Positions 1 through 15,268 of a stretch of DNA of 36,931 nucleotides are shown one piece after another. The position numbers were made by a program, and so were the translations under genes. Every line of letters begins with the position of its first letter. Within the stretch, counting starts at the first letter, position 1. The notes below the pieces were generated by a model. The model did not search any database. It was not told the DNA's origin and worked only from the letters and a program-made list of their open reading frames with translations. Origin of the DNA: Planctomycetota bacterium (GTDB taxonomy: Bacteria > Planctomycetota > Planctomycetia > Planctomycetales > Planctomycetaceae); contig QWPB01000072.1 of NCBI GenBank assembly GCA_003671275.1, positions 1 through 36,931 of the forward strand, in the 5' to 3' direction.

Positions 1-1012
1 AGGGGGTATTTCCACCACTTTGGATCAGAACCTGGGCTTCCCGGCCTTCGCCGTCAACAACTAGATGACCGTGCGTATCACGCACCATCTGGAAGACACC
101 TGGCGATCCCAACTCTTCCGGATCGGTATTCGCAAAGCGGTAGGTGCCAAAATAGGTTCCGATCACCATCAGCCCAATCAGGAATCCAAAGTCCCCGACG
201 CGGTTCATGATGAATGCCTTGTTGGCCGCGTTGCTGGCAGATTTTCGCTCGACGTAGAAACCGATCAGAAAGAAGCTGCAGACACCGACCAATTCCCAGA
301 AGATGAACACCTGGAAAATATTCCCGGCGAGAACCAGTCCCAGCATCGAGAAGCAGAACAGAGACAGAAAAGCGAAGAATCGGTAGAACCGCCCGGGGCG
401 ATGGAAGTGTCGGCCTCCGGAGAGATGCACCTGGTGATCTTCGTAATGCTCGGTCAGTTCATCGCTCATGTAGCCTGTGGCGAAGATATGGATACAGGTC
501 GCAATCAGGGTGACCATGGCGAACATCAGCACGGTCAGGCCATCGATGTAGTAGTCGATGGAAACGACAAAGCTGCCGAACCGGGCCAGTTGATAAAATT
601 GACCGGTGAACGTGGTTCGCAGCGGGTCAAAGGCCGCATGGTCGGCGTGAACGTGAGGATTGGCCTTGTCGATATCGGCTAGTGGGCCATGATTGGCGTG
701 ATCGTGTGGAGCCGTGGCCGCAGGGTGATCGGCGTGATCCGCAGCGGAATGATCGTCATGGGCATCCAGGGCGGCAGCCTGTTCTTCGCGGATGCTGCTC
801 GTGGCGCTCCGCCAAGTCATCAGGGCAGAGAAGCTCAAGAGGAAGCTGGTGGCGATGCACGCGACGGCAATCCACGCGGCGGTCTTGCTCTTCCGGCTGC
901 CCCAATGGCCGCCGAAGATTTCAATGACAAACCCGAGCAGCGGCAGAAGCCATGCAGCTCCGAGCAGCCATTTCAGTGTTGTCGCTGTCTGGTGGTAATC
1001 GTCCGGAGTCAT
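1..1012 (-). CDS. nuoL: NADH-quinone oxidoreductase subunit L (5' part; cut by window edge)
   Basis: This is the N-terminal 337 residues of the proton-pumping antiporter-like subunit of complex I in the cytoplasmic membrane; the 3' end lies left of the window. It starts at an ATG whose first residues are MTPDDYHQ. Two membrane helices occupy about residues 13-33 and 44-65. Recognisable NuoL segments follow: FQVFIFWELVGVCSFFLIGF, then NAANKAFIMNRVGDFGFLIG. Between helix 2 and the next conserved part (about residues 84-125) there is an unusual segment with ten histidines in 41 residues. It is the last gene in this window of a minus-strand run hemY-nuoH-J-K-L. The family assignment is firm from the motifs; the role of the His-rich loop is unknown. 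Confidence 0.93.
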   Translation of the reverse strand, partial: MTPDDYHQTATTLKWLLGAAWLLPLLGFVIEIFGGHWGSRKSKTAAWIAVACIATSFLLSFSALMTWRSATSSIREEQAAALDAHDDHSAADHADHPAATAPHDHANHGPLADIDKANPHVHADHAAFDPLRTTFTGQFYQLARFGSFVVSIDYYIDGLTVLMFAMVTLIATCIHIFATGYMSDELTEHYEDHQVHLSGGRHFHRPGRFYRFFAFLSLFCFSMLGLVLAGNIFQVFIFWELVGVCSFFLIGFYVERKSASNAANKAFIMNRVGDFGFLIGLMVIGTYFGTYRFANTDPEELGSPGVFQMVRDTHGHLVVDGEGREAQVLIQSGGNTP

Positions 1013-1088: not shown

Positions 1089-1400
1089 TTACCCTCGCAG
1101 GTCATCCGCCCGGTCGACATCGATCGACAAATGGTTGTTGTAGAAGTTCAGGGCGATTGCCAGGGCCACTGCCGCTTCGGCGGCAGCCAGGACAATTACG
1201 AACATCGAGGCAATCTGGCCATCCAGCCCCAAGGGGGTGTGGCGTGACAACGCGACGAAGTTCACGTTGGCACCGTTCAGAACCAGCTCGACTCCCATCA
1301 GCATGCCAATCGTGTTGCGTTTCGTGGCCATGCAGACCACGCCGCACACGAAGAGCATCGCGCCGACAAAGAGATAGTGTTTCAGTCCCACGGGATCCAT
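1089..1400 (-). CDS. nuoK: NADH-quinone oxidoreductase subunit K
   Basis: A small three-helix membrane subunit of complex I that forms part of the proton-translocating arm. The 103-residue product matches the usual length of about 100. Both glutamates expected within membrane helices are present: E38 in GMLMGVELVLNGANVNF and E75 in AAAEAAVALAIALNFY. I chose the ATG at 1400 (MDPVGLKHY) over an upstream in-frame start that would add 49 residues, because a GGTGGAG ribosome binding site sits just before it and the extra residues are unlike NuoK. It lies between nuoJ and nuoL, separated from nuoJ by 94 bp that contain a 16-bp tandem repeat. Confidence 0.95.
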   Translation of the reverse strand: MDPVGLKHYLFVGAMLFVCGVVCMATKRNTIGMLMGVELVLNGANVNFVALSRHTPLGLDGQIASMFVIVLAAAEAAVALAIALNFYNNHLSIDVDRADDLRG

Positions 1401-1494: not shown

Positions 1495-2115
1495 TCAGGC
1501 TGCCGGGCTCGACTGCGAAGGTGCCACCCGCCGCTTGGCCCGGGCAAGGTACGACGCCCCTACCAGCACCACCAGAAGGTGAACCGACACAATTTCAAAC
1601 GGCAGCAAATAGCCCGGACGCTTCAGATTGCGACCGTCCCGCAGCGACTCCGTTCGAATCCCGGAAAGGGCAGCCCCCATTCGGCGGACCGAACTGCCTT
1701 CATCTTGCTGGTTGTAACCAGCCACTTGCGTGGAAGCAGAACCGAACTTCCGCTCGATCTGATCGCTGTTGGCGTCCCAGTCGACACCGGTGAACGCCGC
1801 CACCAGCATGGCAAACACGGCTCCGCCGACGGCGAGCGCGAGAACCATCTCGCCGGGATTGGTCTTCAGGTTGGTATACGGCCCCTGAGCCGTGAGCATC
1901 ACCCCAAAAATCAGCAACACTACGGTGCCACCCACGTAGATCAGGAGCTGGGTCGCCCCAACGAAGTCAGCATTGAGCAGGAAGAACAATCCCGCCACGG
2001 AGCTGAGCGAAATGATCAGCCAGAAGGCCATCCGCACGACGTTCTGCGAAAGAACGACTGCGAGGGCTCCTCCGCAGGCGGCCAATGCAAAGATGGTGAA
2101 GACGAGAACACCCAT
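1495..2115 (-). CDS. nuoJ: NADH-quinone oxidoreductase subunit J
   Basis: A membrane subunit of complex I, 206 residues, near the usual size for the family. The N-terminal half carries the conserved pattern: helix 1 at about residues 2-21, then VVRMAFWLIISLSSVAGLFF and GATQLLIYVGGTVVLLIFGV, the region that contains the mobile pi-bulge helix in known complexes. A less conserved, mostly soluble stretch of about 60 residues (roughly 108-170) precedes a final membrane helix near residues 175-192. The ATG lies two bases after the nuoH stop codon, with a G-rich ribosome binding site inside the end of nuoH, so the two are probably translationally coupled. In most nuo operons nuoI would sit between these two genes; here it is absent. 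Confidence 0.93.
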   Translation of the reverse strand: MGVLVFTIFALAACGGALAVVLSQNVVRMAFWLIISLSSVAGLFFLLNADFVGATQLLIYVGGTVVLLIFGVMLTAQGPYTNLKTNPGEMVLALAVGGAVFAMLVAAFTGVDWDANSDQIERKFGSASTQVAGYNQQDEGSSVRRMGAALSGIRTESLRDGRNLKRPGYLLPFEIVSVHLLVVLVGASYLARAKRRVAPSQSSPAA

Positions 2116-2117
2116 GG

Positions 2118-3701
2118 TTAGCGTCCCCCCCGCAGAGTGACTTCCTGTACCGGATTCACGGCAGGTGCTTGCCCCGTATGACCAGGAGCTTCGTGGCTAC
2201 TTGGTCCATGGGGATGCCTATGATCGAGGTGGTCATGATGGTCGCCATGTCCGTGATCGGAGTGCACCGGAACTTGAGTCGGGTCCACTGACAGCACCTG
2301 AACACGATTTCCGATCGACTGTCCCGGCAGCATCGTCGGGCGACCGGCGACACTCAGCCAGAACAATGGCCAGATAACAGAACCGATAAACAGGAAGCAG
2401 CTGATCGGCACCAGGTACTTCAGGCAGGTCGTCATGACCTGGTCAATTCGCAAGCGAGGTAGTGTCCAGCGAATCCAGATTTGAACACAGACCAGCAGGC
2501 CAGCCTTGCTCAACAGGACGAGCATCCCCAGAACCCTGCCCGGATAACCTTCCAGCATGGAATGGAGTGCGGAGTCCAGGGGAGCAATTCCTGTCCACCA
2601 ACCGCCGAGGAACAACAGCGAGCCAATGGCACTGACAAAGTACATGCTGGCATATTCGGCCAGAAAGAAGAACGACCAGCGCATCCCGCTGTACTCAGTG
2701 TGGAAGCCACCGACCAGTTCGCTTTCCGCCTCCGCCAAGTCGAACGGGGCCCGCTTGTTGCTGGCCAGCGTGACCGTGAAGAACACAAAGAACGCCACGA
2801 ACGTGAACGGGCTGTGAAAGATGAGCCAGTTCGTGAACCAGCCGCTCTGCATATGAGCGATCTCGTTCAGGTTCATCGTGCCGCAAATCAGCACCGGAAT
2901 CACGGCCGTGATCCCCAGCGGCACTTCATAGCTAACCATCTGGGCGGTTTCACGCATCCCACCGAACAGGGACCACTTTGATCCGCTGGAGTAACCGGCG
3001 AGAACGACCCCCAGAACTTCGAGAGACAAGACGGCCATTCCAATGAACAGTCCGCAGTCCAAGGCCACAGCCACCCAACCGTCACTGAATGGAAGGATCA
3101 GAAAGGAGGCGAAGGAGGCGATCACCACCAGATAGGGGGCCAGCCGAAAGAGCATCCGATCTGCGGCAGCGGGAGCCAGATCTTCCTTCTGAATCAGCTT
3201 GATCCCGTCGGCGAGCGATTGCAGCCAGCCGAAACGGCCACCGCAATGGGTCGGTCCCAGGCGGTCCTGAATCCGGCCCGAGATTTTTCGTTCAGCCCAG
3301 ATAAATGCAAATGCCGGTAACCCAAAGAACGCCGCCAGCATCCCAATGTGAATGGACACCACGGCCAGCAGGATCAAATCTTCATTAGATGCCGGAGATG
3401 CCGGCCTCAGGCCGTAAAATACGGCCAGACAGCCCACTCCCAGGATCACCAGAAGCATCGGCCCCCAGGGCTGTCGCCATGCTCGATTTGAGGGACTCCC
3501 TGGGCTCAATCGAGACCAAATCCACTGGGTCAGTCGAAGCAGAACTCCCAGGGCAACGAGCACACCCCCCAAAGTGGGAACCACATACACGTCGCCGACA
3601 AACGGCAAAGTGCAACTCGCTGACAAGCCAGTGCGCAAACTCTCAACGAGCCAAGTTGCAGCGCTTTGGATGAACGAGATGTCAGCCGGTGACGGCGTCA
3701 T
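2118..3701 (-). CDS. nuoH: NADH-quinone oxidoreductase subunit H, with extra N-terminal helices and a His-rich C-terminus
   Basis: The membrane subunit that joins the quinone site to the proton-pumping arm of complex I. The core motifs are clear: ERKISGRIQDRLGP, then FGWLQSLADGIKLIQKED, ETAQMVSYEVPLG, and NKRAPFDLAEAESELVGG followed by FHTEYSG. The product is 527 residues from the ATG at 3701, longer than the roughly 320-430 usual for NuoH. About 110 extra residues with two predicted membrane helices precede the canonical first helix, and the last 48 residues form a tail with eleven histidines in 29 residues. The frame stays open upstream to 3860, but that extension would overlap hemY and lacks membrane character. 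It is followed directly by nuoJ. Family assignment is firm; the extensions are unexplained. Confidence 0.93.
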   Translation of the reverse strand: MTPSPADISFIQSAATWLVESLRTGLSASCTLPFVGDVYVVPTLGGVLVALGVLLRLTQWIWSRLSPGSPSNRAWRQPWGPMLLVILGVGCLAVFYGLRPASPASNEDLILLAVVSIHIGMLAAFFGLPAFAFIWAERKISGRIQDRLGPTHCGGRFGWLQSLADGIKLIQKEDLAPAAADRMLFRLAPYLVVIASFASFLILPFSDGWVAVALDCGLFIGMAVLSLEVLGVVLAGYSSGSKWSLFGGMRETAQMVSYEVPLGITAVIPVLICGTMNLNEIAHMQSGWFTNWLIFHSPFTFVAFFVFFTVTLASNKRAPFDLAEAESELVGGFHTEYSGMRWSFFFLAEYASMYFVSAIGSLLFLGGWWTGIAPLDSALHSMLEGYPGRVLGMLVLLSKAGLLVCVQIWIRWTLPRLRIDQVMTTCLKYLVPISCFLFIGSVIWPLFWLSVAGRPTMLPGQSIGNRVQVLSVDPTQVPVHSDHGHGDHHDHLDHRHPHGPSSHEAPGHTGQAPAVNPVQEVTLRGGR

Positions 3702-3801
3702 GCAATTGTTCCGAGGGGGGTTGCGGACGCACAGCGCACCGCTGCTCCTGAGGGAACGGAGAGTTATGACAGAACCCCCGATGGCTTTCAAGCAACCGGT
3801 T

Positions 3802-5238
3802 TCAGCCCGGTCGAGCCGCTCTCGCCACATCCCAGATTCGTTCCGCAGCGTTCTCACCACTGAGAATTGAATCTGGTAATCCCACCCCTCCCAATGTATT
3901 GCCCGCGATTTGAATCGTGGGTGTCAGTTGCAGGGTTGTGCGGATTCGCTGGACGCGATCCATGTGTCCCACATGGTACTGGGGCATGGCTCGCTCATAG
4001 CGGGCGACGAGGGCAAACTGTGGTTCCGACCGTACATCGAAGATTGAACGAAGTTCACGCAGCGTGGCCTCGATGAGCTGACCATCTGACAGGGCCATCT
4101 TTTCAGGCTGCATGGCTCCCCCGATAAAGGTTCGCAGGATTGCCTGACCCGAAGGAGCCCGCTCGGGAAACTTTCGATGCAGGAAAGAAACGGAGAGAAT
4201 CTCGCGTTTCTCAACGGCAGGAATCACCAGGCCAAAGGCATTCAATGGATGGCCGATTCCCGCGTGATCGTGTCCGGTAATCACGATGGCACTCGACGCG
4301 TACTCAATCGCCGACAGCTCCTCCGCCGCCGCCGGATTCACAGTCCGGCACAGGTCGCCCGCGAGGTAAGCGGGTGTTGCGAGCACAATTCCATCGACAT
4401 CCGACTGGGACTGTTGGCCGTTCCCATCCGTCCAGTGAATTTGAAATCGCTGGGCCGCCTCACCCGGGAGTGGAATGATCGCCGTGGCCCGCGAACTGGT
4501 GTGGACTCGGGCCACCTGGCGGACTCGCGCCGCCAGTGCATCGATCAACTGGGACATCCCGTGGCGGAGCGACGCAAACAGCCCATAGCGGGCTCCACTG
4601 GCGGCTTTTTCCGCCGCGCCGGTTTCAGCAGCCTGCATCCCCTCGAACAGGCTGCCATAGCGGCGTTCCATGTCCAGAAAACGCGGCAATGTGGCTGCCA
4701 GGCTGAGCTTCTCAGGGTCGGCGGTGTATATCCCCCCCACCATGGGCTGAACAATCCGATCCAGCATCTCTTTCCCCAGTCGGCGACGGGTGAACGAGGC
4801 CAAACTCTCGTCGCCGCCTTCTTTCCGCTGTGGAATCAAGGGTTCCAGCAGGCATCGCAATTTGCCACGCCAGGAGAGAATTGGCGTCTTGAGAATGGAC
4901 CACGCCCCTCCGGGAGCGATCAGGTTCAGGCCTTCCGGGGTTTCGATCGGTCGACCTCGAGACAGAATCAGCGACCGCCGATTCTTGTCATCCGTGCCGA
5001 TCAGGTCGTTCTCCAACCCGAGCTTGCGGCACAGTTGGACGCCGCCCGGCTTGTTGGTGATGAAGGAGTCGGCCCCCCGCTCGATCAGGCAATCCCCGAT
5101 GGATTCACTGGCCACTAGCCCCCCCAACTGGGGAGCCGCTTCCAGCAGGAGGATTTCACTGTCGACAGCAATCTCACTCAGGCGTAAAGCCGCCGTCAGA
5201 CCACTAATCCCCCCGCCAATGACGGCCAGTCGTTTCAC
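3802..5238 (-). CDS. hemY: Oxygen-dependent protoporphyrinogen oxidase (HemY/HemG type)
   Basis: A flavoenzyme that oxidises protoporphyrinogen IX (or coproporphyrinogen III in the related bacterial branch) during haem synthesis. The N-terminus is a Rossmann FAD-binding motif, VIGGGISGLTAALRLSE, followed by the ERGADSF segment typical of this family. Near the C-terminus IAGNTLGGVGLPDSILSG matches the second FAD-contacting motif. I chose the GTG at 5238 (478 residues) because GGAGAGG lies five bases upstream and it places the FAD motif at the very N-terminus; an in-frame ATG at 5322 would add 28 unlikely residues. It lies 100 bp upstream of nuoH on the same strand, so haem supply and complex I genes may share a transcript. 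Which porphyrin is the true substrate cannot be decided from sequence alone. Confidence 0.93.
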   Translation of the reverse strand: MKRLAVIGGGISGLTAALRLSEIAVDSEILLLEAAPQLGGLVASESIGDCLIERGADSFITNKPGGVQLCRKLGLENDLIGTDDKNRRSLILSRGRPIETPEGLNLIAPGGAWSILKTPILSWRGKLRCLLEPLIPQRKEGGDESLASFTRRRLGKEMLDRIVQPMVGGIYTADPEKLSLAATLPRFLDMERRYGSLFEGMQAAETGAAEKAASGARYGLFASLRHGMSQLIDALAARVRQVARVHTSSRATAIIPLPGEAAQRFQIHWTDGNGQQSQSDVDGIVLATPAYLAGDLCRTVNPAAAEELSAIEYASSAIVITGHDHAGIGHPLNAFGLVIPAVEKREILSVSFLHRKFPERAPSGQAILRTFIGGAMQPEKMALSDGQLIEATLRELRSIFDVRSEPQFALVARYERAMPQYHVGHMDRVQRIRTTLQLTPTIQIAGNTLGGVGLPDSILSGENAAERIWDVARAARPG

Positions 5239-14755: not shown

Positions 14756-15268
14756 CTAGTGGTGAGCGTCGGCGAGCAACACTTCGCCATGACCGTGGCC
14801 GTGATCGTCGCCATGGCCGTGTGAATCGTGGCCATGGGCATCCTGACCGTGTTCCTCTTCCGCAGAGTCTTCCCCGGAAAAATCGACCAGACCATCGAAT
14901 ACACCGGCCAGCTGGGCTGACCCGGCCAGAAACATGATGACAACCAGACCCACGACATAGACCAGCTTGCCAACAAAGTTCGACAGCGAGAGTTTGATGC
15001 CCAAAATTGGGTAGTAATGCTGTCCGTCAATCGGCGGAGCCACACTCCCCCAGACCAGCACCGCCAGCAGGGCCACCAGGGCAATTCCCAGAAAGCCCCC
15101 GGATCGGATCACCGACGAGAGACGCTGCCAGTTCACAGCCAGTCCCCAGAAGGCCGCCCAGGCGATCAGCGGGGTCCAGGGAATCAGCAGCGTCGCCGTG
15201 GCAACGACAACCTGCAGCACTGCGCCAAGCAGGTTCAGGAGAGCTTCGATCAACACCATGACAGTCAC
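14756..15268 (-). CDS. Small membrane protein with histidine-rich C-terminal tail, function unknown
   Basis: A 170-residue protein I cannot assign to a family. Three or four hydrophobic segments (about residues 5-30, 30-45, 57-75 and 97-120) are followed by an acidic and histidine-rich tail with ten histidines in about 31 residues. The pattern HGHGDDHGHGHG suggests binding of Zn, Ni, Co or Cu. The frame opens at GTG 15268; an ATG three codons later (15259) is an equally good start, and no strong ribosome binding site separates them. It lies alone between the PSCyt1/PSD1 gene and the YXWGXW gene, all on the minus strand. The consistent hydrophobic pattern supports a real gene; function is unknown. 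Confidence 0.72.
   Translation of the reverse strand: MTVMVLIEALLNLLGAVLQVVVATATLLIPWTPLIAWAAFWGLAVNWQRLSSVIRSGGFLGIALVALLAVLVWGSVAPPIDGQHYYPILGIKLSLSNFVGKLVYVVGLVVIMFLAGSAQLAGVFDGLVDFSGEDSAEEEHGQDAHGHDSHGHGDDHGHGHGEVLLADAHH

Follow-up and report, generated by a model that had tools for sequence, protein, structure and literature searches.

A His-rich loop of NuoL is a trait of a whole planctomycete family and belongs to a wider pattern on proton machines

The NuoL protein whose gene opens the window (i.e., the whole stretch of 36,931 nucleotides analysed here, from a Planctomycetota bacterium) belongs to a known protein family and carries, between TM2 and TM3, a His-rich loop that is a real, family-wide trait and fits into a pattern extending to other proton machines. 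The first-pass annotation had described a His-rich insert with ten His in 41 residues, and this is exactly what is found at residues 85-125 (HDDHSAADHADHPAATAPHDHANHGPLADIDKANPHVHADH). The placing of the insert in the TM2-TM3 stretch stands as well, but its extent has to be enlarged, the whole loop covering residues 69-134 (611-808). Rather than a single oddity of one genome, the loop is a trait of the family and of most of the class, and such segments occur on more than one complex. The reading proposed below, tentative and given somewhat less than an even chance, is that this arm of NuoL, probably disordered and titratable by pH, may buffer or relay protons at the exit of complex I and may be one of several such arms in these bacteria. 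The features of the window are collected in Table 1.

Table 1. Location of the NuoL segments and of the neighbouring features in the window.
Feature	Position	Strand	Remarks
nuoL, 5' part	2..1012	-	337 aa, ORF open at contig start
TM1, residues 3-37	902..1006	-	AlphaFold2 model
TM2, residues 44-70	803..883	-	AlphaFold2 model; helix extends to 86
Inserted TM2-TM3 loop, residues 69-134	611..808	-	66 aa, 10 His, net charge -9 with neutral His
His-rich core, residues 85-125	638..760	-	10 His in 41
Beta-hairpin before TM3, residues 135-156	545..610	-	AlphaFold2 model
TM3, residues 158-181	470..541	-	AlphaFold2 model
Second insert, TM3-4 loop, residues 183-208	389..466	-	His/Asp fixed in position
nuoK	1089..1400	-	start about 1400; no His-rich segment
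nuoJ	1495..2115	-	TM4-5 loop long, not His-rich in the window's genome
nuoH	2118..3860	-	window ORF and profile matches
NuoH C-terminal tail, His-rich	2178..2264	-	
Small membrane protein, no NCBIfam/Pfam match	14756..15268	-	His-rich C-tail 14759-14881

The remainder of nuoL, in a 494-aa frame, opens contig C112 of this genome. The window ORF matches the NCBIfam NuoL model with an E value of 1e-50, and both Pfam models, Proton_antipo_N and Proton_antipo_M, exceed their cut-offs. Being partial, the N-half stays below the cut-off set for the full length; the C-half alone reaches 417 bits against TIGR01974 (cut-off 407.5). The genes nuoH, nuoJ and nuoK are the upstream neighbours of nuoL in the window; on C112, nuoL is followed by two frames whose place and size suggest nuoM and nuoN. 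The window protein has in common with NuoL/ND5 of complex I the sequence family, the order of the TM helices, the hairpin before TM3 and the operon order H-J-K-L. It differs from NuoL/ND5 elsewhere in that NuoL of the window's family has a second insert, located in the TM3-4 loop.

The AlphaFold2 model of the N-terminal window protein with 48 relatives (49 rows) has a mean pLDDT of 71.7, while that of full-length NuoL with 10 rows is poor (mean pLDDT 46.8). Besides the elements listed in Table 1, AlphaFold2 places a small hairpin in the TM3-4 loop, followed by TM4 (residues 209-229). In Foldseek, the N-half matches NuoL/ND5/NdhF chains (E 3e-6), with TM-scores of only 0.36-0.40. Over residues 91-130 the pLDDT is about 51-56; such low model confidence is as expected of disorder and suggests that the loop is disordered. 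By family topology, the TM2-3 loop of NuoL is taken to be on the P-side (periplasmic). The distribution of positive charges agrees with this, i.e., 3 K/R in the 13-residue TM1-2 loop vs. 5 in the 92 residues from TM2 to TM3, and the periplasmic location proposed in the first pass is therefore retained as probable.

In the second insert, His and Asp are arranged differently from those of the first, being fixed in position. The motif EDHxVHxxxGxHFHRxGRF is present in 47/125 parsed NuoL segments, and every listed segment from outside the family is without it; D201, H202, H205 and H211 (numbering of L036) are invariant in 10 rows. The TM3-4 insert is a better candidate metal site than the TM2-3 loop.

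The His content of the TM2-3 loop is far from the background of the genome. With an own-genome level of 2.34% His (103,893 aa, 273 own ORFs), the binomial probability of finding at least 10 His among 41 residues is 2.8e-8. At least 10 His in 41 residues are found in 4/1341 own ORFs (1.68 Mb, i.e., 33% of the genome), all four being located either within the window or on a contig selected for its nuoL.

In the 76 distinct loops of the family, the number of His ranges from 3 to 22 (median 11): 70/76 loops have at least 5 His, 60/76 at least 8 and 49/76 at least 10, and at least 8 His lie within 41 residues in 54/76; these shares are biased upward because two of the search patterns came from the window's loop itself, the 76 loops being the 30 nearest matches plus loci found by pattern (7/83 family loci, with identical loops, were dropped), and the weaker family matches are only partly covered; L095 has 4 His only. 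The median length is 67 residues in the loop table, which includes L002 and L086 (no His in either). As the first pass had stated, ordinary NuoL is short at this place: E. coli, Sinorhizobium, Bacteroides, Paenibacillus and others have 16-35 residues with 0-2 His. Measured by the same rule, the TM2-TM3 stretch has a median of 84.5 residues and 11 His, vs. a median of 21 residues in other phyla.

The comparison of NuoL across planctomycetes and other bacteria leads to the following shares of parsed distinct loops with at least 5 His: 68/74 in f1 (presumably Planctomycetaceae), 8/10 in f2, 2/10 in f3, 2/3 in f5, 11/12 in f70-f78, 2/33 outside the class (L168 and L170; best NuoL match per genome only; L187 and L167, with a misplaced anchor, give an empty and a 4-residue loop, respectively) and 0/9 in other phyla (L261, with an empty loop, was dropped as a duplicate), 15 loci being unparsed (4 f4, 1 f72, 7 outside the class, 2 f1 and 1 of other phyla). 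The His-rich loop is thus rare outside the class, and similar His content is not a property of ordinary NuoL of many phyla. The f4 loops, judged by eye, are His-rich (7-15 His in 95 residues, some of these stretches including TM3). The f3 loops are long with little His (median 1), so that the long loop is more widespread than the His content. An assembly or MAG artefact is ruled out, as Thalassoglobus neptunius KOR42 (L036), whose record is not marked as MAG, has a loop with 17 His.

Second copies of NuoL were also met. L087, the second NuoL copy of another genome, has its own His-rich TM2-3 loop. A second nuo-like gene set with its own NuoL is located on contig C63 of the window's genome (G000; locus L211), so that two types of complex I are apparently encoded in this genome. 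Its second NuoL has no His in the TM2-3 loop and a very His-rich TM13-14 loop, which we take to be on the N-side. A very His-rich TM13-14 loop is also seen in the ordinary NuoL of Sphingomonas parapaucimobilis (L257). Both are like the window's loop in composition but not in place; the TM13-14 loop is shorter in Thermosynechococcus, and those family relatives whose NuoL was read over its whole length have a short version only.

The family loops contain 16.5% His, 4.6% K+R and 20% Ala. Their length and residue order change fast, and the tandem units they contain (e.g., SHDSHDSHD, AEAGHAEAGH) differ from genus to genus; the His content is kept, contrary to what lack of conservation among close relatives would give. 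In 17 independent close pairs, 320/362 aligned His cells are identical (88%), vs. 1256/1672 for the other residues (75%). The non-synonymous/synonymous counts are 21/51 for His (0.41), 23/27 for Asp (0.85), 24/19 for Glu (1.26) and 38/103 for Ala. The ratio of His differs from that of D+E+N+Q together (p = 0.0008) and from that of Glu (p = 0.006); it is not clearly different from that of Asp alone (p = 0.08), and retention of His does not differ from that of Ala (p = 0.75). A codon or DNA-repeat artefact was considered and rejected: the His codons of the loops (CAC 464, CAT 385) resemble those of the rest of NuoL (1190 and 916, respectively), although tandem expansion does occur.

Neutral drift of an unconstrained loop would account for the rapid change of length and order. 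It is nevertheless highly improbable: (i) at least 5 His are kept in 70 of the 76 family loops; (ii) a similar gain is seen in the second copy L087 and, outside the class, in L168 and L170; (iii) the non-synonymous rate of His is lower than that of D, E, N and Q taken together, all with two-fold codons.

It is also conceivable that the loop is a soluble, low-complexity spacer poor in K/R, in which H, D, E, A and G merely fill a P-side loop, slippage alters the length and His has no task of its own. The low K+R and high Ala contents are in line with it, P-side loops avoiding K/R, and so are the tandem units, the good retention of Ala and the long f3 loop with little His. The spacing of His relative to local shuffles can be read in the same manner, since a spacing of 5 is commoner (z +5.6) and a spacing of 1 (HH) rarer (z -6.0). 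On the other side, His is present at sevenfold its own-ORF level and is better conserved than D, E, S, T, N and Q (with the reservation on Asp alone given above). These latter points make the spacer rather unlikely, and the survey of other proteins presented below bears on it as well.

His/Asp-rich flexible loops are known from metal transporters, and by binding Zn, Cu, Ni or Fe the arm might likewise serve as a periplasmic metal store or sensor, or as a structural clamp. The likeness lies in a flexible loop of a membrane protein rich in His with Asp/Glu, and HxH and HxxH do occur in it. However, besides the rarity of HH, the metal-type clusters are not enriched over local shuffles (HxH, z -1.9; HxxH, z +0.75, i.e., chance), no His position is fixed in the TM2-3 loop and such segments presumably lie on both sides of the membrane. 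Moreover NuoL, unlike the transporters, is not a metal transport protein, and to our knowledge neither NuoL nor ATP synthase, both hosts of such segments, has a redox or transition-metal cofactor. Metal binding by this loop is accordingly judged improbable. The loops have a median net charge of -9 as long as His is neutral and of +2 once every His is protonated; the His fraction increases with net acidity (rho 0.43), decreases with S+T+N+Q (rho -0.52) and does not follow Ala/Gly. Spacing, charge and the trend with acidity are more in line with scattered titratable groups than with clusters for metal. Between the two functions offered in the first pass, metal binding or buffering, buffering is the one favoured, the other proton machines pointing in the same direction; metal binding finds no support in these data.

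The survey of the own genome covered the same 1341 ORFs, 190 of them with at least 2 predicted TM. At least 8 His in 41 residues are reached, among these multi-TM ORFs, by the second NuoL, NuoH, the NuoL N-half, the NuoL C-half, the small membrane protein, CtaD and AtpB, the first five being encoded within the window or on contigs chosen for their nuoL. The remaining contigs contribute 172 multi-TM ORFs, of which CtaD and AtpB alone attain this value. The cut-offs of 8 and 6 His were set after the data had been seen. A match of the small membrane protein is present in 31/41 family genomes, own included.

In relatives (for AtpB, CtaD and SecY, the best 30 of the 40 genomes with a match), AtpB has at least 8 His in 41 residues in 22/30, at least 6 in 25/30 and fewer than 6 in 5/30; the N-tail of CtaD has at least 8 in 9/30 and at least 6 in 25/30. 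SecY, the only unrelated membrane control, has 0/30 at both cut-offs. Of the AtpF proteins, 15/29 have at least 5 His in the 70 residues preceding the TM helix, 9/29 rows without TM anchor being counted on the first 70 residues and identity being checked for two members. Among the genes flanking nuoL, at least 8 His are found in 0/50 NuoM (named in relatives by its place after nuoL), 0/50 NuoK, 2/50 NuoH and 3/50 NuoJ; at the ctaD loci, 0/48 multi-TM frames reach 8 His (one frame being CtaD itself).

The segments differ in place. In AtpB, the ATP synthase subunit a (L285:4676-5668 (-); loci L304-L333), a His-rich loop follows RDEVVRPxIG in most relatives, and in the window's genus it is the C-tail that is His-rich. 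In AtpF, the ATP synthase subunit b (L304:470-1396 (-), L318:2445-3263 (+)), the His-rich part lies between a signal-like start and the TM helix. The TM4-5 loop of NuoJ is His-rich in few relatives (L036, L037, L042 and L045), with 9 His in L036 and 14 in L037. NuoH was discarded as a general second site, its His tail being common to 2/48 NuoH only, both of the same genus (L033, L034). Presumably the NuoL loop, NuoH tail, NuoJ loop and AtpF segment are on the P-side, and the AtpB loop and CtaD tail on the N-side; this was partly checked by K/R.

These results count further against the spacer, as the AtpB and CtaD segments of the N-side have a like make-up although K/R are allowed there, and nothing comparable is found in the NuoM and SecY relatives. 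They also bring in another explanation, namely that the arms are sticky, pH-dependent polyampholytes which tie the respiratory complexes and ATP synthase to each other or to another periplasmic part. Several complexes do carry arms, whose charge is near neutral with protonated His; but one and the same ATP synthase would have arms on opposite sides, so that this explanation is very unlikely.

The preferred reading remains that of a proton buffer at the exit of complex I. Dispersed His, together with Asp/Glu, in a disordered arm on the periplasmic face of NuoL would take up and give off protons around neutral pH, the pKa of His being near 6-7. Lying beside the exit, the arm would then pass the released protons along the membrane surface, i.e., it would act as a proton antenna run as acceptor. 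This may be a wider habit, like arms being carried by ATP synthase subunits a and b and by the N-tail of CtaD. A review gives NuoL as the only periplasmic proton exit of complex I (PMC10212512); a different mechanism has been proposed by another group (PMC8357420). The lack of an arm on NuoM, a homologue which is not the proposed exit, fits the exit idea.

A loose analogy is offered by the PG domain of CAIX, acidic and 59 aa long, which is reported as a proton antenna (PMC6021347). Both segments comprise about 60 residues, are crowded with titratable side chains and lie, presumably in the case of NuoL, beside a proton path; they differ in that the PG domain uses Glu/Asp (26 acids) instead of His and has a measured effect, whereas the NuoL arm is known from sequence, and no homology is claimed. 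The antenna trait of dense titratable residues in a flexible segment is found in the window's loop, with 10 His and a charge of -9 in 66 residues and low pLDDT.

Several observations are counted against the buffer. Arms are presumably present on both membrane sides, those of AtpB and CtaD being opposite to that of NuoL, which does not fit a single collecting antenna. The f3 median of 1 His, together with the 5/30 AtpB with fewer than 6 His (best 30 of 40 genomes), indicates that the arms are dispensable. Moreover, Ala is retained as well as His, and His is absent from the TM2-3 loop of the second NuoL of this genome. A distributed buffer, in which the arms on the exit of complex I, on ATP synthase subunits a and b and on cytochrome oxidase would hold protons at the surface between pump and turbine, the NuoL arm marking the exit, is an extended form of the reading and is considered unlikely.

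In one open-access library, searched partly by titles and beginnings of abstracts, no description of a His-rich loop of NuoL in planctomycetes was found; none was found there either on a His-rich planctomycete ATP synthase or a His-rich CtaD N-terminus. Two points are debated, namely (i) whether protons, once pumped, remain close to the membrane surface and (ii) whether NuoL is the only route by which complex I releases them. Cultured planctomycetes with the loop exist, e.g., Thalassoglobus neptunius (L036). If the proposed reading is true, these bacteria would possess a natural, removable titratable arm on NuoL and not on NuoM, with others on ATP synthase and cytochrome oxidase, and both debates would become testable by deletion.
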